A stretch of DNA of 64,000 bases, from assembly GCA_017545185.1 (NCBI GenBank), contig JAFWQJ010000079.1:49772-113771 (forward strand), written 5' to 3'. Source of the stretch: Oscillospiraceae bacterium (GTDB taxonomy: Bacteria; Bacillota; Clostridia; Oscillospirales; Ruminococcaceae). This document shows, piece by piece, positions 15,686 through 62,586 of this stretch. The position numbers and the translations under genes were made by a program. The notes below the pieces were generated by a model, which was not told the DNA's origin, did no database searches, and saw only the letters and a list, made by a program, of their open reading frames with translations. How positions within the stretch are numbered: position 1 is the first letter of the stretch; every line of letters starts with the position of its first letter.

Positions 15686-16255
15686 ATGCACAACGACAGC
15701 CGCATCATCGCGCTGCTGCAGAAGCGGGATGAACAGGCACTGAACATGATCCGCGCCGCATACGGAAAGCTCTGCTTCCGGATCGCACAGCGGATGCTGG
15801 GCAATCAGGAGGACGCGGAGGAATGCGTCAACGATATGCTGCTGGCGGTCTGGCAGACTGTGCCCCCGCATCAGCCGGAGTCGCTGGAAGCGTATCTGGT
15901 CACATTGCTTCGCCGTTCGGCCATGGACAGACTCCGGCAGAGAAACAGTCAGAAGCGCGGCGGCAGACAGCTCGCGGCGGCGCTGGATGAGCTCTCGGAG
16001 CTGCTGCCCGCAAGGGATAACGTGGAGCTGGAATGCAGCCGCCGTGCCCTCACAAAGGCGCTGCGGAAATGCATAGACGGGCTCCCCGCAAAGGCACAGC
16101 GGGTCTTTCTGCAGCGTTATCTGCTTGCAATGCCGCTGCAGGAGATCGCAGCAGACAACGGCATGAGCCTTTCTGCCGTCAAAGTCCTGCTGCACCGCAC
16201 AAGAAAGCAAATGCGCGATTTTTTGCGAAAGGAAGGTTTCGATGAACAGCTTTGA
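15686..16255 (+). CDS. ECF-type RNA polymerase sigma factor (copy 1)
   Basis: 189-residue sigma-70 family protein of the ECF class, with only regions 2 and 4. Region 2 reads RMLGNQEDAEECVNDMLLAVW. Region 4 contains LPAKAQRVFLQRYLLAM followed by the helix-turn-helix MSLSAVKVLLHRTRKQM. It directs RNA polymerase to a small regulon. The start follows AAAGGGGGTGAAGCA. The stop overlaps the next gene by 14 bases, so regulator and sigma are translationally coupled. It is clearly paralogous to the sigma factor at the right end of the window (RDEQAL, EDAEECxND and NAVKV/SAVKV blocks shared). Confidence 0.93.
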   Translation: MHNDSRIIALLQKRDEQALNMIRAAYGKLCFRIAQRMLGNQEDAEECVNDMLLAVWQTVPPHQPESLEAYLVTLLRRSAMDRLRQRNSQKRGGRQLAAALDELSELLPARDNVELECSRRALTKALRKCIDGLPAKAQRVFLQRYLLAMPLQEIAADNGMSLSAVKVLLHRTRKQMRDFLRKEGFDEQL

Positions 16256-17645
16256 GATCATGGATGCGCTCGGCGGTCTGCCGGAGCAGTATTATTTGCG
16301 CGCACTCCCGCATACGCCAAACCGGAAGGCATCTGCGGGCATCACCGCACCGCGCTTTCTCACGGCGTCGGCACTGGCTGCCTGCACGGTATTCGCAGTC
16401 GGTGTGACGGCGATGCTGATCCGCGGCGGGGCGGAAATCTCCGGAGAAAAAACCGGCTTCACAAAACTGGAGCTGTATGCGCAGAAGGAAATGCGTGTAT
16501 GCAGCTATGATGAAGTCATGGAACTGATCCGGACGGAATGGGCAGCGGACAGCAGCCCGGCTCCGATCGACACGGAAAAATATATCTCGGAATGCTTCAC
16601 GGGCAAAACCGATGCGGAGATCAATACGCCGGAATCCAAAAGCTATCTTTATCACATGATGATCAACAGCATCGACTATTTTCAGACAGCCGAAGGAACG
16701 ATCAGAAATATCACGGCACAGGACAGATTTGATGAACCGTTTGACGTTGTGTTTCAGGCGGATCTTGAACAGCATGCCTCTTATGTCGGACTGACGGAAA
16801 ACGGTGAGAAAAAGCGGGAGTGCTTCCTTGCAGACGGAACCGTCACTGTGACCGATCCGCCGGAAAAGACCCTTCTGCATAGCCTGCGCGGTGCGGAACA
16901 TGATCTGTCCCTCAGCGACAGCGAACGGACGCTCCTGCTGGATGACGGTTCTTTGATTGCGGTCAACCGTCCGGACAAAGCATATCTGGATGCCGCAGGC
17001 GATTTCTGTCTGTTTCCGCAGCATTTTGCAATGACCCGGCTGCACGATTTCGACAAATGGAAGATCACCGGCACCGAAACGCTGCTGAACAGAACCTGCG
17101 CGGTGATCGAGGGGACCGGTCTGAACAGCACGTTCAGAATCTATACGGATATCGCCACAGGCATGATGCTGAAGCATGAGGAATACGACAAAAACCGCAC
17201 CAGAACCGGTTATTCCGAAGTGACCGCGCTGACACTCGATCAGGAGATCACGGTCAGGCGGTTTGACCCTGCAGATTACCCGGATTATCAGTTGGAAGAG
17301 AAATCGAATGATGATCCGACGGTCTATACCGATGCCGAGATGACACAGGCGCTCCCGCATAATCATCCGGACTATCCCGTCAACGAAAACGGGCAGACCT
17401 ACGGCACAACCGGAGATGCGAACTATGTTGAAGATTATCCGGATCTGATCGCGGTGATCGGCGACAGCGGAAAACAGGGCTATATTTACCGCGAGGACTT
17501 TCTCGGTGATGTGCCGTCCTCTTTGGAGGAAGCGGTCGAAATCGAAAACACGATCCGGAACGGCACGTATGTCCCGCGGTCGGTCAAAGTCTACGATGCG
17601 GACGGCGTCACGGTCATTGATACGTTCACAGAAAAGCTTTCATAA
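16242..17645 (+). CDS. Membrane anti-sigma-like regulator with RseB/LolA-like ectodomain
   Basis: 467 residues with a short cytoplasmic N-terminus (EIMDALGGLPEQYYLRALP), one membrane segment (about residues 45-65) and a large extracellular part. The N-terminus and membrane segment resemble those of the anti-sigma at 59,996-60,940 (ALAACTVFAVGV versus ALAACMLFAVGV). No zinc-binding HxxxCxxC motif is present. The ectodomain (about 150-350) has the beta-rich pattern of MucB/RseB/LolA proteins (DVVFQADLEQHASYVG, FRIYTDIATGMMLKHEEYD). A short C-terminal motif ends SVKVYDADGVTVIDTF, which is seen in other Firmicute envelope proteins. It probably holds the sigma factor at the membrane and releases it on an envelope or lipid signal (inference from gene pairing). 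Confidence 0.75.
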   Translation: MNSFEIMDALGGLPEQYYLRALPHTPNRKASAGITAPRFLTASALAACTVFAVGVTAMLIRGGAEISGEKTGFTKLELYAQKEMRVCSYDEVMELIRTEWAADSSPAPIDTEKYISECFTGKTDAEINTPESKSYLYHMMINSIDYFQTAEGTIRNITAQDRFDEPFDVVFQADLEQHASYVGLTENGEKKRECFLADGTVTVTDPPEKTLLHSLRGAEHDLSLSDSERTLLLDDGSLIAVNRPDKAYLDAAGDFCLFPQHFAMTRLHDFDKWKITGTETLLNRTCAVIEGTGLNSTFRIYTDIATGMMLKHEEYDKNRTRTGYSEVTALTLDQEITVRRFDPADYPDYQLEEKSNDDPTVYTDAEMTQALPHNHPDYPVNENGQTYGTTGDANYVEDYPDLIAVIGDSGKQGYIYREDFLGDVPSSLEEAVEIENTIRNGTYVPRSVKVYDADGVTVIDTFTEKLS

Positions 17646-56821: not shown

Positions 56822-58492
56822 TCATGCCTTCTGCTGCGTCAGCATGTTATTGAGTGCGCTGACAAATGCCTTGACGGACGACGTCATGATATCGTTGTCG
56901 ATGCCGACGCCCCAGAAGCTCTCTTTTTCGCTGTTCAGCAGCTCAACATAGGAGACCGCCTTCGATGTCGAGCCGACCTCGAGTGCGTGCTCCGTATAGG
57001 AATTGAGCGTATACGTAATGCCGGTGTACGAACGCACCGCATTGCTGACCGCATCCAGACGGCCGTTGCCGTTGTTCGTCGCGGAGGCTGTCTCACCGTT
57101 GTATTCAATGTCGATCGTCGCCTCAATGCCGTTGTGCTGAACATAATGCACATCGGTCAGATTCAGCGGCTTCGTAATGTCGATATAATGCTCGCGGAAG
57201 ATCAGATAGACCTCATCCGGCGAAAGCTCTCTGTGCTCGTGGTCGGAAATGCTCTTGACCAGATAGCCGACATGCTCGCGCATCCGCTTCGGCAGATTGT
57301 AGCCGAACCGCGTTTCCAGCACATAGCCGATGCCGCCCTTGCCGGACTGGCTGTTGATGCGGATAACGTCCGTCTCGTATGCTCTGCCGATATCGGCGGG
57401 ATCAAGCGGCAGATACGGCACCGTCCAGTGCGGGTCGCCGGTCTCGGTGCGCCATTTCAGCCCCTTTGCGATCGCATCCTGATGCGAGCCGCTGAACGCC
57501 GCAAAGACCAGCTTGCCGGAATACGGCTGCCGTTCGTTGATCTCCATCTGGGTCAGGCGCGTGTACATTTCCGTCAGGGTCGGGAGATCGCTGAAATCGA
57601 GGCCGGGGTCAACACCCTGCGTATACAGATTCAGCGCGAGCGTCACGATATCCACATTGCCGGTGCGCTCACCGTTGCCGAACAGCGTTCCCTCGACGCG
57701 CTCCGCACCCGCCAGCAGACCCATTTCTGTATCCGCGACCGCGCAGCCGCGGTCATTGTGCGGGTGCAGCGAGAGGATCACATTCTCACGGTATTTCAGG
57801 TTCTCGCTGATGTACGCGACCTGATTCGCATACACATGCGGCATGGAGAGCTGCACGGTCACCGGCAGATTGATAATGACCTTGTCCTCCGGTGACGGCT
57901 GCCAGACATCCAGCACGGCATTGCAGATCTCCAGTGCATAGTCCGGCTCGGTACCGGTGAAGCTTTCCGGCGAATACTCAAAACGGATCTTGCCGGAACA
58001 GCGTTCTCTGTACTGCTTGCAGAGCTTCGCGCCGGATACCGCAATTTCGGTGATCTCGTCCTTGTCCATGCGGAACACCTGCTCGCGCTGCACCAAAGAG
58101 GTCGAATTATACAGATGCACGATCGCCTGCTTACATCCCTCGATCGCTTCAAATGTCCGCTGAATGATGTGCTCTCTGGACTGCGTCAGCACCTGGATCG
58201 TCACATCGTCCGGGATCAGATCCTGCTCGATCAGCGTGCGGCAAAATTCAAATTCCGTATCGCATGCCGCCGGGAACCCGATCTCGATCTCCTTGAATCC
58301 GATCTTCACGAGCGCGGAGAAATACTCGAGCTTATCCTCCAGCGACATCGGGGTCACAAGTGCCTGATTGCCGTCGCGCAGATCGACGCTGCACCACTGC
58401 GGCGCATGGTCGATATAGGTTTTCTGCATCCAGTCTGTTTTCGGTGCAGGCGCGGCAAAAAACTGCCGGGTATACTTTTCTGCATTTCTCAT
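56822..58492 (-). CDS. leuA: 2-isopropylmalate synthase
   Basis: 556 residues, the long LeuA type. The catalytic domain has [24 protein letters not shown] and the metal-binding [16 protein letters not shown] and [10 protein letters not shown]. The C-terminal allosteric LeuA dimer domain extends to the end ([16 protein letters not shown]). It condenses 2-oxoisovalerate with acetyl-CoA, the first step to leucine, and is usually inhibited by leucine. The ATG lies 8 bases after GGAGG; a GTG three codons upstream is less likely. It is controlled by the upstream T-box. Confidence 0.97.
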
Positions 58493-58534
58493 GTTGAACA
58501 CCTCCGTAATTTATCTGCCGGGAAGGGCTGATAA

Positions 58535-58572
58535 CAAAAAATCGCCCCTCTCCATGAATCCGGAAAGAGACG
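58535..58572 (-). terminator. T-box-controlled terminator before leuA
   Basis: CGTCTCTTTCC pairs with GGAGAGGGGCG on the minus strand (11 pairs with G-U), followed by ATTTTTTG. Confidence 0.88.
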
Positions 58573-58812
58573 AAGCTTCTGTCTGAATACTCCGCGGTAC
58601 CACTCTTCTTGACACGCAACTGTGCCCGCTCTGCTGCGTCGCATGAACGCATCTCTCTGTGACGGGAGAACCCGGTCAAGCCTAATTGCATCGCTGCGTT
58701 CAGCCGACTGCTCAGGGAGGAGTTATGACCCTTCGTCCGCTGCTGCCTTTCAGCCGGGGGCAGCTCTCTGGAAGCGTTCGGAAAAGGCTTTTGTTCCCTT
58801 CATCGCATTTAT
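58573..58812 (-). ncRNA. T-box leader, probably leucine-specific
   Basis: Contains the T-box core TGGTACCGCGG (58,592-58,602 on the minus strand) directly before the terminator. Some 200 bases of structured leader (repeated complementary arms such as CTGCCCCCGGCTGAAAGGCAG) lie between it and a strong promoter. An in-frame CTC codon in AACTCCTCCC could be the leucine specifier; this was not folded. Uncharged tRNA should stabilise the antiterminator and allow leu gene transcription. Confidence 0.88.
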
Positions 58813-58818
58813 ATATAA

Positions 58819-58847
58819 AGTATAGCATAATTCATACCGTTTGTCAA
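58819..58847 (-). promoter_or_regulatory. Sigma-A promoter of the leu operon
   Basis: TTGACA, 17 bases, TATACT on the minus strand. Confidence 0.88.
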
Positions 58848-58867
58848 GCACCTTTTCGGCGGTTATG

Positions 58868-58902
58868 CAAAATCAGCCGCCGGCAGTTGAATACCGGCGG
58901 CT
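58868..58902 (-). terminator. Terminator of the second sigma operon
   Basis: AGCCGCCGG pairs with CCGGCGGCT on the minus strand, followed by GATTTTG. Confidence 0.82.
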
Positions 58903-58918
58903 GTATCGGAATCAGTTG

Positions 58919-59983
58919 TCAGATTTTCTTCGCGATCTTTTTCAGGATGAGCTCGGTGTCGTCCGTTGTGACATTGCCGTCGCCGCTGATATCGGCGTTC
59001 AGCCTGCCCAGATCGGTGATGACGGCTTCTCTGTCCTCGGCGGCAAATCTTGCGACCAGAACCGCGTCTGCGACGTCAACCGAACCGTCGGCATTCGCGT
59101 CACCGTTTCCGGCAATGTCGTTGAATGCTTTGTAGGTGATATTCGCAAGCCCTGTCCGGAAACTCTGTGCATCCTGCTGTTCAGCGGGATACAGATAACG
59201 CCATTCCAGTGTGCTGCCGTCTGTATCCAGACGGATATACACGATTTCTTCCTGTTCGGCAATCGCAAGGATTTTCTCCGAGCCTGCATCATCAAACCAG
59301 TATTCGATCAGCGTGAGGCCGCTGCCGCCGAAATAATCCGGATACGCCTGTGCCGCGGCGAGATCCTGCATTGCCTGCTCAAAGGAACCGGCTTTTCCGG
59401 TGATCACACTGACTGCATTCAGTGTGAAGCGCGGTGTATCTTCCGGAAGATCGCCCCTGATCACGGCGCGCTCCCTGCGGAATTCCCCGATCAGACGGTT
59501 TTCTTTTTGCTCCAGCTGCTTCAGGGCGGCCTTCTGCGCAGCGGTCAGGGTGTTGTCAATGACCGTGACCGTCGCCGTGACCGTGCGGACGGGCGTATCC
59601 TGCGGCGAAAGACTGACCGCATCCGGATTCAGCTTGGCCGTGATGCGGATGACCGCGGTGCCCTCCGCTTTTGCTGTGACAAGTCCGTCACGGGTAACAG
59701 ACGCGGCCTGACTGTTGTCCGAAGTAAACTGCAGGGATTCCGCGTAATAGCATTCTGCGTCCCAGACAGCTTTCAGCTGGTATGTTTCTCCGGCATTCAG
59801 TGTGAGCGCCGGTGTTTCTGCTGCGAAGCCGTATAATTCGGGCTCCGGATCGGTATATTCCTGATTCACCGGCATTGTCGTGACCGGTTCCGTCGCTGCC
59901 GGTTCCGCTGCGGCGGGTGCAGAAGCTGCTGCACAGCATAACGCTGCAAGAATCAATGCGGATAAAAAGGCTGTCGTTTTCAT
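58919..59983 (-). CDS. Secreted dockerin protein sharing its central domain with the adjacent anti-sigma
   Basis: 354 residues. Signal peptide; a BIG2-like domain (about 50-145, ETYQLKAVW, AASVTRDGLVTAKAEGTAVI). The central domain (about 150-255) reads NRLIGEFRRERAVIRGDL and AYPDYFGGSGLTLIEYWFDD. The C-terminal dockerin has loops DANADGSVDVADAVLVARF and DISGDGNVTTDDTELIL. The central domain aligns with the ectodomain of the anti-sigma factor encoded just upstream (YPDYxGGSGxTxIEYWxDD identical in both). The protein should sit on the cellulosome. It starts about 12 bases after the anti-sigma stop, with GGAGG 7 bases before the second of two ATGs. The function of the shared domain is unknown; a ligand-binding or feedback role is inferred. 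Confidence 0.85.
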   Translation of the reverse strand: MKTTAFLSALILAALCCAAASAPAAAEPAATEPVTTMPVNQEYTDPEPELYGFAAETPALTLNAGETYQLKAVWDAECYYAESLQFTSDNSQAASVTRDGLVTAKAEGTAVIRITAKLNPDAVSLSPQDTPVRTVTATVTVIDNTLTAAQKAALKQLEQKENRLIGEFRRERAVIRGDLPEDTPRFTLNAVSVITGKAGSFEQAMQDLAAAQAYPDYFGGSGLTLIEYWFDDAGSEKILAIAEQEEIVYIRLDTDGSTLEWRYLYPAEQQDAQSFRTGLANITYKAFNDIAGNGDANADGSVDVADAVLVARFAAEDREAVITDLGRLNADISGDGNVTTDDTELILKKIAKKI

Positions 59984-59995
59984 CATGATCCCTCC

Positions 59996-60940
59996 TTAGC
60001 TCAGTAGCTTTTCAAACAGATTTTCTTCCCGGCTGCTGCCGTGTATCACATGAACCAGATCCTGCTGTTCGACAATCAGGTCGATATAATCCGTGCCGGA
60101 ATCGTCCAGCCAGTATTCGATTCTGGTGACACCGCTGCCGCCGACATAATCCGGATACGGATAAAGTTCCTGAAGTCTGTCTTTGACTGCACGAAAATCC
60201 ATGCCGCTGCTGACCATTTCCATGACCTCCGCAAGCGTGATGCGGGGTGCATCCGCGGCAAGCTCGCCGCGCAGCTGTGCAAGCCGACGTTTGTATTCGC
60301 CGATCATGCGGTCACCCTCACGCACGACCTCATCCTCGGAAGTCATAAGCATGACCGGATGCGGCTCTGCTGTTGCTGTGGTCTGTACGGTTGTTTCTTC
60401 CGCCGTGGTGACAGGCGGTGCAGTCGTCAATATTGCAGGCTCTGCGGAAGATTCCGGTTCCGCGGGCGGTTCTGTCTCTGCGGCGGGCTCCGTGACGGCG
60501 GGCTCGGTTTCCGTGACCGTGACCGTCTGAATCTGCAAGGTTTCCGTGACGGCGGCAGTTTCAGTCTTTACGGATACCGTCGTTTGCGCGGTTGTCACGG
60601 CAGAAGTCTCCGTATATGCGGCTGTGACCTCCTGCACCACGGAATCCGGCTGCGTACTCTGTGCCGTCAGCTCATCACGGTTCCCGTGGATCAGAAATGC
60701 ACCGACACCGACGGCAAACAGCATACAGGCTGCCAGTGCCGCCGCCGTGATCCAGCGCGGCGCGGAAAGGCCGGGCGTATCCGCATCGGGGTTCCGGTAC
60801 GGCACCGTTCCTGCCGGGGAGACTGCCGCTGTGCTGACAGCCGGCTGATCGCTCTGCGCCGCATAGGATGCAGTACAGGCCGTCACGATCATCTCATCCG
60901 GCAGCGTGTTCATCAGCTCCAGAAAAGTCTCAGCATTCAA
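59996..60940 (-). CDS. Membrane anti-sigma-like regulator with shared ectodomain
   Basis: 314 residues. Short cytoplasmic part (ETFLELMNTLPDEMIVTA) of about 60 residues, one membrane helix (about 62-84, AALAACMLFAVGVGAFLI), and a long Thr/Val/Glu-rich extracellular stalk (about 95-200). The C-terminal domain (about 205-305) has DRMIGEYKRRLAQLRGEL and PYPDYVGGSGVTRIEYWLDD. The start overlaps the sigma stop as ATGA. Cytoplasmic and membrane parts match the first regulator in the window, while the ectodomain differs and instead matches the dockerin protein next door. The plan recalls RsgI anti-sigma factors of Clostridium thermocellum, which carry polysaccharide-sensing ectodomains, but the sigma partner here is ECF, not SigI. 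Confidence 0.8.
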   Translation of the reverse strand: MNAETFLELMNTLPDEMIVTACTASYAAQSDQPAVSTAAVSPAGTVPYRNPDADTPGLSAPRWITAAALAACMLFAVGVGAFLIHGNRDELTAQSTQPDSVVQEVTAAYTETSAVTTAQTTVSVKTETAAVTETLQIQTVTVTETEPAVTEPAAETEPPAEPESSAEPAILTTAPPVTTAEETTVQTTATAEPHPVMLMTSEDEVVREGDRMIGEYKRRLAQLRGELAADAPRITLAEVMEMVSSGMDFRAVKDRLQELYPYPDYVGGSGVTRIEYWLDDSGTDYIDLIVEQQDLVHVIHGSSREENLFEKLLS

Positions 60941-61503
60941 AGCAATCCCTCCTCCCGCAGATATGTTTGCAGACGCTTCCGCAGTCTTGCCAGCGTGACC
61001 TTCACAGCGTTCTCCGTCATCCCGAACCGCGCAGCGAGGTCGGCGACGGCCGCGGACTGCCAGTACCGGCAGATAAACAGATCACGCTGCTTCTCCGGCA
61101 GATTTTGCAGGAACACCGTGACCGCCTGCATCAGCTCGCGCTGTTCCAGCTCCCGCTCGACGTTCTCCGCCGCGGGAAAGATCTCTGTCAGCTCGTCCAG
61201 TGCCTGCGAGACCTGCCCGCCGCCGCGCTTGCCTCTCCGGCGTGATTTGTACCGGTCAAGAGCTGCGTTGCGGACGGTTTTCAGAAGGTACGCACAGTAG
61301 TTTTCCGGGTTCGCGGGCGGGATCGCATTCCAGACGCGCAGCAGCGCATCGTTCAGGCATTCCTCCGCATCCTCATCGCTGCCCAGAATATTGCGTGCAA
61401 CAGACCGGCAGAGCGCACCGTACAGCTGTACGGAATCTTTCAGCGCCTGCTCGTCTCTGTTATGCAGCATCAAAAGAATTCTTTTGCCGTCTATGGCGAT
61501 CAC
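60937..61503 (-). CDS. ECF-type RNA polymerase sigma factor (copy 2)
   Basis: 188 residues. Region 2 reads NILGSDEDAEECLNDALLRVWNAIPP; region 4 has LPEKQRDLFICRYWQSAA and the helix-turn-helix MTENAVKVTLARLRKRL. It is a close paralogue of the sigma at 15.7 kb. The start is GTG; its ribosome binding site is weak (AAAGG very close), but the length matches the paralogue, whose RDEQAL motif lies at nearly the same distance from the start. It has its own ECF-like promoter and overlaps the anti-sigma gene by four bases. Confidence 0.92.
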   Translation of the reverse strand: MIAIDGKRILLMLHNRDEQALKDSVQLYGALCRSVARNILGSDEDAEECLNDALLRVWNAIPPANPENYCAYLLKTVRNAALDRYKSRRRGKRGGGQVSQALDELTEIFPAAENVERELEQRELMQAVTVFLQNLPEKQRDLFICRYWQSAAVADLAARFGMTENAVKVTLARLRKRLQTYLREEGLL

Positions 61504-61530
61504 CGCCTTTCGTGTTTCCCTTCACCCGTT

Positions 61531-61558
61531 ATAACGACATTTTGCGCATAAGGTTACA
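61531..61558 (-). promoter_or_regulatory. Putative ECF-sigma promoter of the second sigma gene
   Basis: TGTAACCTT, 13 bases, CGTTAT on the minus strand. The 9-mer and the spacing are identical to the element before the first sigma gene. Confidence 0.65.
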
Positions 61559-61614
61559 GCGATATGAAAAAATTTTTCGTATCTTCATTTTATCATCGGC
61601 GGCACGGTTTGTCA

Positions 61615-61656
61615 ATGCAAAAGAAAGGAGCAGCATGATCGCTCATACTGCTCCTT
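61615..61656 (-). terminator. Terminator of the nrdD-trxB operon
   Basis: AAGGAGCAG pairs with CTGCTCCTT on the minus strand around ATGA/TCAT, followed by TCTTTTG. Confidence 0.82.
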
Positions 61657-61671
61657 GTTTCGTATATGCAA

Positions 61672-62586
61672 TTATCTGTCGAGATACCGGCAGGCTGCAA
61701 GGGCAGCCGAAGCGCCGTCCGCGGTCGCGGTCACGACCTGACGGATCGCCTTCGTGCGGCAGTCGCCTGCTGCAAACAGACCCTCTGTTCCGGTCTTGCA
61801 GTTCTCATCGGAGATGATATAGCCTGCGGGATCAAGCGCTGCAAATTCCGCAAACGCGCCGTTCTCCGGCTGCTGACCGATCGCGGCGAACATGCCTGTC
61901 ACGGAGAGCACCTCCGGCGTTTTGTCCGCGCCCTTCAGAATGCGGATGCCGTTCAGCCTGCCCTCACCGAGCAGCGCATCGACTGTCGCATCACAGATCA
62001 CGCTGACGTTTTCGAGCTTCGAGACGCGTTCCTGCAGCACGGGATCACCGGTCAGCTCCGGCAGATTCTGCACGATCGTGACCGAGGTGCAGATATCCGA
62101 AAGGAACACGGCGTCCTGCAAAGCGGTGTTGCCGCCGCCGATCACCGCAACATCCTGATCGCGGAAGAATGCGCCGTCACAGACTGCGCAGTAGCAGACA
62201 CCGTGACCCGTCAGCTCCGCCTCATGCGGCAGGCCGAGCGTCCGATGCTTCGAGCCGGTCGCAAGGATCACGCTTTTCGCCTGATAGCTGCCGTATTCGC
62301 CGGTCAGCGTAAAGCCCTGCGCATCCTTTGCGATCGCAGTGATATTGTCCATTTCCAGCACGGTGCCGTGTGCCTCCGCCTGCGTCATCAGCTTTTCGGC
62401 AAATTCCGCGCCGCTGATCTCCATGGCAGTCGGATAGTTCTCGATCTTCGGGGAAAAGGTGATCTGTCCGCCGAAGTTCTCCTTCTCAATGACGATCACC
62501 GATTTGCCCGCTCTCCGTGCATAGAGCGCGGCTGTCAGACCGGCAGGACCCGATCCGACAACCGCGATATCATAAACCTTGCACAT
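61672..62586 (-). CDS. trxB: Thioredoxin reductase
   Basis: 304 residues. FAD-binding GSGPAGLTAALYARRAG, redox pair CAVC in GVCYCAVCDGAFF, NAD-binding GGGNTALQDAVFL, and a C-terminal GLFAAGDCRTKAIRQV. It reduces thioredoxin-like proteins with NADPH. The ATG shares its A with the nrdD stop (TGATG). The operon partner carries its own thioredoxin-like domain, so the reductase may act directly on that domain (inference). Confidence 0.96.
   Translation of the reverse strand: MCKVYDIAVVGSGPAGLTAALYARRAGKSVIVIEKENFGGQITFSPKIENYPTAMEISGAEFAEKLMTQAEAHGTVLEMDNITAIAKDAQGFTLTGEYGSYQAKSVILATGSKHRTLGLPHEAELTGHGVCYCAVCDGAFFRDQDVAVIGGGNTALQDAVFLSDICTSVTIVQNLPELTGDPVLQERVSKLENVSVICDATVDALLGEGRLNGIRILKGADKTPEVLSVTGMFAAIGQQPENGAFAEFAALDPAGYIISDENCKTGTEGLFAAGDCRTKAIRQVVTATADGASAALAACRYLDR

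Follow-up and report, generated by a model that had tools for sequence, protein, structure and literature searches.

Why do a membrane regulator and a secreted dockerin protein encoded next to each other carry the same outer domain? The question is raised by a three-gene cluster at 58919–61503 on the minus strand of a 64,000-nucleotide stretch of DNA, hereafter the window, from an Oscillospiraceae bacterium (GCA_017545185.1, contig JAFWQJ010000079.1), in which the gene for an extracytoplasmic function (ECF) sigma factor is followed by that of the regulator and then by that of the dockerin protein. An original prediction, made without database searches, had described this trio and a domain common to its last two proteins. 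Our analyses show that the arrangement of a matched sensor and dockerin protein is real and recurrent. Their main point beyond that earlier view is that modules unrelated to this domain are paired in the same manner. The genes and their protein parts lie at the following positions of the window.

60937..61503, minus strand: ECF sigma factor gene, 188 amino acids, GTG start (Sigma70_r2 44.6 bits, Sigma70_r4_2 38.4 bits, TIGR02937 95.8 bits)
59996..60940, minus strand: gene for a membrane anti-sigma-type regulator, 314 amino acids, TTG start, with a 4-bp overlap with the sigma gene
60689..60745, minus strand: predicted transmembrane helix of the regulator, residues 66–84 (from a hydropathy window)
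60347..60688, minus strand: Thr/Glu/Pro-rich stalk of the regulator, residues 85–198 (as read from the protein)
59999..60346, minus strand: X domain, the C-terminal ectodomain of the regulator, residues 199–314 (homology; structure model with a predicted local distance difference test score, pLDDT, of 95.5 and a predicted template modeling score, pTM, of 0.87)
58919..59986, minus strand: secreted dockerin protein gene, 355 amino acids, beginning 9 bp past the regulator gene
59627..59809, minus strand: Big_2 immunoglobulin-like domain of the dockerin protein, residues 60–120 (36 bits, cut-off 22.8)
59162..59533, minus strand: X domain, central in the dockerin protein (homology and model)
58934..59104, minus strand: type I dockerin (Dockerin_1), residues 295–351 (29.6 bits, cut-off 22.9)

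The sigma factor is of the ECF type by profile (TIGR02937, 95.8 bits against a cut-off of 42.9), and its regions 2 and 4 are both present in the Pfam scan. Five matches to the SigI profile TIGR02895 were found in the window's own genome (G000) at E ≤0.001, and the window sigma factor (C80:110729-111217) is not among them; none of the five lies above the cut-off, the best, a SigI-like protein at G000:C46:23175-23828 (+), reaching 153.2 against 185 bits. The regulator has the two features by which membrane anti-sigma factors were recognized, one transmembrane helix (predicted from hydropathy only, the maximum beginning at residue 66) and an overlap with a sigma gene, and the Pfam scan gave no family above its cut-off for this protein. 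In the dockerin protein, a signal-peptide-like N-terminus, read from the sequence, is followed by the Big_2, X, and type I dockerin domains, and the genome that encodes it is cohesin-bearing, with 18 cohesin matches above cut-off. An Rfam scan of 58300–62000 at gathering scores gave no match. The regulator, a membrane sensor with an external X domain, probably controls a gene switch, the sigma factor.

Sequence comparison identifies the C-terminal domain of the regulator and the central domain of the dockerin protein as homologous: BLASTP aligns them with 38% identity over 120 amino acids (E 6e-24), and their Smith–Waterman score is 202, against 2000 shuffles that gave a mean of 28.0, a standard deviation of 4.8, and no score above 53. 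Both domains have the R-x-IGE, RGxL, and YPDYxGGSGxTxIEYWxDD blocks in the same order, and in the structure models predicted helices and strands follow one another identically in the two (in the dockerin protein, helices 149–164, 170–177, 189–198, and 202–212, and five strands within 217–266). A Pfam search with 29 X sequences returned no convincing family (best E 0.018), with the proviso that Pfam may lack some families of carbohydrate-binding modules. The original prediction is borne out on these points: it had placed the three genes in an operon-like cluster, which the 4-bp overlap and the 9-bp gap now describe; called the sigma factor ECF and not SigI; taken the domain to be undescribed; and staked itself on a significant similarity between the two domains, which is what we found.

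An alignment of X matches 18 of the 30 genomes of the genus, whose name, Ruminococcus, rests solely on the names of related records, and, in a sample of the family, 12 of 396 genomes, of which 4 belong to the genus itself. Six of the 30 genus genomes, the own genome among them (G000, G001, G002, G020, G024, and G025), have the trio with its genes ordered as in the window (type 1); the original prediction had suggested looking for it in other genomes. Within the reach of the contigs, two of which are only ~6 kb long, the neighbors of the trio are different in each of the six. In type 2 systems (G028 and G012), the regulators have a divergent X domain that is found by profile (E 1e-12 and 9e-14), and the partner gene of G012 runs off the contig end. 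Type 3 systems, found on the named contigs L089, L091, and L093 (the last with the record label Ruminococcus flavefaciens RUG14135), have X in both the regulator and the dockerin protein together with other types of sigma and anti-sigma factor.

Seventeen positions of X are conserved at ≥90% in both 8 regulator copies and 14 secreted copies, and the GGSG motif occurs throughout the trio set of X copies (23 of 23: 9 from regulators and 14 from secreted proteins). L084, L092, and L094, where the regulator has a divergent X or another module, U, are represented in this set by the X of their secreted proteins. Among other secreted copies the motif is found in 9 of 26, or in 12 of 29 if three short fragments are counted, and among the regulators L115, L120, and L121, which were counted apart from the trio set, in one of three. 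The X tree and the GGSG count omit 13 of the 65 X copies, namely, three fragments of 83 amino acids, all with GGSG, and ten divergent copies from eight long anti-sigma factors and the two type-2 regulators, none with GGSG. The copies are related by descent, so a Fisher test on the GGSG counts yields no true probability and the counts serve as support only. In the tree of 52 copies, type-1 regulators and type-3 regulators each make up a group of their own, with values of 98 and 95 in the Shimodaira–Hasegawa-like approximate likelihood ratio test (SH-aLRT); the tree requires three label changes, and its well-supported branches alone force one. X is also found in a small lipoprotein-like protein of 138 amino acids in an uncultured Clostridia record (L098:5842-6258, plus strand).

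Modules unrelated to X are paired in the same way. The own genome (3.6 Mb) has 66 matches above cut-off to the ECF/sigma-70 profile, which also picks up other sigma types; 63 of the 66 were covered (61 in extracted stretches and 2 in the window, three top matches being omitted). These 63 contain 52 sigma/anti-sigma pairs, 10 of them with a dockerin gene downstream (one of the three following genes, no gap exceeding 250 bp). On contig C89 (L140), an anti-sigma ectodomain unrelated to X has two matches to the dockerin protein encoded downstream of it (35% over 178 amino acids, E 6e-24; second match 25%, E 5e-10). Over all loci we count 29 distinct operons composed of a sigma factor, an anti-sigma factor, and a dockerin protein, with the dockerin gene as the first downstream gene in 26, the second in 1, and the third in 2; L090, a duplicate of L035, is uncounted. 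The ectodomain matches its own partner in 16 of the 29, through X in nine operons and through four unrelated modules in the others, Y in four and T, U, and V in one each, T coming from a metagenome-assembled contig and the V match being weak (E 1e-5). This set is biased because many loci were chosen for carrying X; less biased subsets give a match in 2 of the 10 own-genome operons and in 3 of the 5 loci with a downstream dockerin gene that were chosen by type-3 sigma alone (22 of 40 places outside the own genome examined). In the own genome a match is seen for 2 of 13 cognate pairs and for 1 of 2171 non-cognate ones (Fisher p 1e-4), the sole non-cognate match being another X protein; this comparison used the 42 dockerin proteins in the examined stretches, and the genome has at least 149 dockerin matches (150 of 306 candidates scored).

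What points most strongly to a function is the joint change of the modules in sensor and partner. The sigma factors of L089, an X system, and L212, a Y system, are 83% identical, and the N-termini of their anti-sigma factors, which include the membrane helix, are 65% identical; in contrast, the last 130 residues of the two regulators align no better than shuffled sequence (score 26 vs. a shuffled-X mean of 28), and each dockerin partner carries the module of its own regulator. Conversely, L091 and L089 have X in common (score 468), yet their sigma factors are only 49% identical.

We see about an even chance that these systems are an ECF version of the SigI–RsgI logic, in which a sensor and its cellulosomal partner carry one recognition module for a shared ligand. 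Gene order, homology, recurrence, and the linked exchange of modules are its established part; to these we add, as what we infer, sigma–anti-sigma binding, a ligand, proteolysis, autoregulation, a regulon, and cellulosome incorporation. The regulator would keep the sigma factor inactive by means of its N-terminal cytosolic segment, and its X domain would meet an extracellular ligand, the likeliest being a constituent of the plant cell wall or a substance attached to such a constituent. Ligand binding would lead to loss of the regulator, probably through regulated proteolysis, and the freed sigma factor would transcribe its own operon and so give more dockerin protein, which would bring X to the cellulosome and there act on or hold the same ligand. 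X would be one of several exchangeable modules, with Y, T, U, or V serving in the two proteins of related operons.

Two matched pairs are informative about origin. The ectodomain of the T pair (G002, L037) corresponds to nearly the whole dockerin protein minus the dockerin; the copies are 92% identical over 268 amino acids, and over 300 codons the pair has 87% amino acid identity with proportions of synonymous (pS) and nonsynonymous (pN) differences of 0.18 and 0.08. The sequences suggest that the dockerin protein, minus its dockerin, was copied here recently. The L089 ectodomain includes the linker that comes after X in its dockerin protein (E 1.4e-6), a match that is weaker in L091 and L093 (E 0.014 and 0.008). 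Copying of the neighbor onto the anti-sigma factor would account for both the T likeness and the L089 linker. We tentatively propose, at somewhat below an even chance, that in these Ruminococcus relatives, rich in cellulosome components, anti-sigma factors acquire their ectodomain as a copy of the cellulosomal protein under their control, minus the dockerin, which would keep sensor and effector matched and make modules exchangeable between sigma frames. If so, partner copying would be a general wiring rule for cellulosome control, with dozens of ECF sigma factors replacing SigI–RsgI.

The T and L089 cases would also be expected, as would the 13 of 29 operons with no match, if the pairs were a by-product of local duplication in which anti-sigma genes take part of a neighboring secreted gene as a spare ectodomain and the two proteins share no function. 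We nevertheless consider this quite unlikely, given that old pairs retain both copies, as the separate branches of type-1 and type-3 regulator X indicate (SH-aLRT 98 and 95), and that GGSG is kept throughout the trio set, by the 9 regulator copies and by the 14 secreted ones, a count in which the two divergent type-2 regulators, without GGSG, are omitted. The T pair has a further bearing: with copies 92% identical over 268 amino acids, its two proteins should bind nearly alike, as would be expected if, in line with possibilities named in the original prediction, the secreted partner competed with the sensor for a limited ligand or bound the X domain of the regulator, the sensor reading free versus docked partner. 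The origin of both window proteins in one operon-like cluster and the 17 motif positions common to both sets also favor such feedback; however, the sequences give no pointer to self-binding over a shared ligand, and we regard this explanation as unlikely.

The favored reading, a shared-ligand sensor and partner, finds its closest parallel in the SigI–RsgI systems of Clostridium (Acetivibrio) thermocellum and relatives, in which a sigma factor and a membrane anti-sigma factor are likewise encoded in one operon (PMC6056542, PMC12203970). These reports describe divergent outer domains, such as carbohydrate-binding modules and glycosidase domains, that sense substrates, several paralogues per genome, and usual autoregulation. 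Unlike SigI–RsgI, the window system has a sigma factor with regions 2 and 4 and an ECF profile match, an undescribed module, and a next gene that encodes a dockerin protein with a matching module. RsgI_N (PF12791) has no matches in the own genome (95% complete) and none in the regulator, and the comparison with RsgI made in the original prediction holds as a likeness of logic. The RsiV–SigV lysozyme receptor of Bacillus subtilis also combines an ECF sigma factor with a membrane anti-sigma factor whose outer part is a receptor (PMC5014341). By analogy, X could be a decoy that binds or inhibits a host or competitor enzyme such as a protease or a lysozyme-like protein, the regulator reporting attack as RsiV does with lysozyme and the operon making more inhibitor. 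We hold this to be highly improbable. Unlike RsiV, the regulator has neither DUF4163 nor DUF3298 among its Pfam matches, and its partner is a dockerin protein.

Two candidate promoters lie upstream of the sigma gene.

61533..61558, minus strand: ECF-like promoter TGTAAC-N14-GTCGTT, upstream of the sigma gene (pattern match)
61587..61615, minus strand: sigmaA-type promoter TTGACA-N17-TAAAAT, upstream of the ECF-like site (by eye)

TTGACA and TACAAT boxes were seen by eye in the five other type-1 upstream regions as well; the strict AAC-N-CGT pattern is found, among 13 upstream regions, in the window only. The ECF-like site in the operon's own promoter fits autoregulation and falls short of proof.

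Several results weigh against a shared-ligand sensor and partner. The regulon that the original prediction expected to be traceable by promoter motif did not emerge: genome-wide and with no mismatches, TGTAAC-N14-17-GTCGTT occurs at one site, the operon's own promoter, and nowhere a second time, versus three occurrences of the reversed control pattern. In the five other type-1 operons, the stretch that resembles the ECF site by eye has AAG or AAT in place of the AAC of the −35-like box. Thirteen of the 29 operons are without a match between ectodomain and partner, one of which (G028, L040) holds a divergent X by profile (E 1e-12), and 8 of the 10 own-genome operons are without a common module by blastp or phmmer. 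The expectation that homologs of the regulator lie beside dockerin genes holds in several genomes but fails for the X-bearing regulators L115 and L121, from two other genera, which have no adjoining dockerin gene, and for eight long anti-sigma factors with a divergent X, which have none downstream; next to the X-bearing regulator L120 there is a dockerin gene that lacks X. X itself matches no Pfam family, a clear solved structural relative was not found for the regulator-X model (pLDDT 95.5), the BLIP/BamE-like fold being a candidate without a clear match, and a catalytic or carbohydrate-binding domain above cut-off is present in 0 of 13 X proteins scanned. Finally, L211 is a case against a simple rule of linked exchange: its sigma factor is 91% identical to that of L212, but its ectodomain differs, and its next gene encodes not a dockerin protein but one with an LPxTG-like end that by eye has no likeness to the ectodomain.

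How Ruminococcus controls its large cellulosome is an open question. A comparison of six ruminococcal strains describes cellulosome regulation as yet to be understood (PMC4081043), and a 2024 survey describes a dedicated suite of RsgI receptors as used only by Acetivibrio-type cellulosome producers (PMC11557425). For R. flavefaciens FD-1, 118 dockerin proteins and 155 putative unknown domains are reported in a study whose main text has no words starting with "sigma" (PMC2930009), whereas here a regulator has the same module as a dockerin protein. PMC5742341 brings in ECF factors solely to predict polysaccharide utilization loci. A search of open-licence titles and abstract starts returned, among the matches listed, no paper that describes a pairing of ECF anti-sigma factors with dockerin proteins for Ruminococcus. 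The nearest precedent is possibly a study that reportedly concerns an Fn3-like sensor in Pseudobacteroides. The matched operons provide concrete sensor–effector pairs, a natural series of module swaps, and a route to the ligands of undescribed modules of dockerin proteins. The repetition of the sensor–partner pairing with unrelated modules suggests a possible way for such Ruminococcus-type gut bacteria to match their fiber-degrading machinery to what they meet.

Other loci with sigma, anti-sigma, and dockerin genes were noted along the way. On own contig C89, sigma and anti-sigma genes are closely followed by three dockerin genes encoding 341, 362, and 1198 amino acids (L163:1415-9000, plus strand); a common module was not found in this cluster by sequence comparison. 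On own contig C14 (L136:871-2754, minus strand), a dockerin protein with a GH26 domain and a CBM35 match below cut-off is encoded downstream of a sigma factor and an anti-sigma factor of 855 amino acids, a possible mannan-related pair. A further domain, Z, with a motif like YTKEWF...DMAEW, apparently occurs, by eye, twice in a long anti-sigma factor of G023 (L054:5397-8174) and twice in an own-genome dockerin protein (L140:10862-12847). Two anti-sigma ectodomains of own contig C10 (L132) have one dockerin-like calcium-loop motif, GDVDMDGKITFVDAALV and a near copy, seen by eye; we do not claim it as a dockerin because the profile match is weak (E 0.3 and 0.6). The window itself has a second ECF sigma/anti-sigma pair at 15686-17645 on the plus strand (189 and 467 amino acids), with no dockerin gene after it, whose anti-sigma ectodomain matches another own-genome protein (L150) with E 8e-53.

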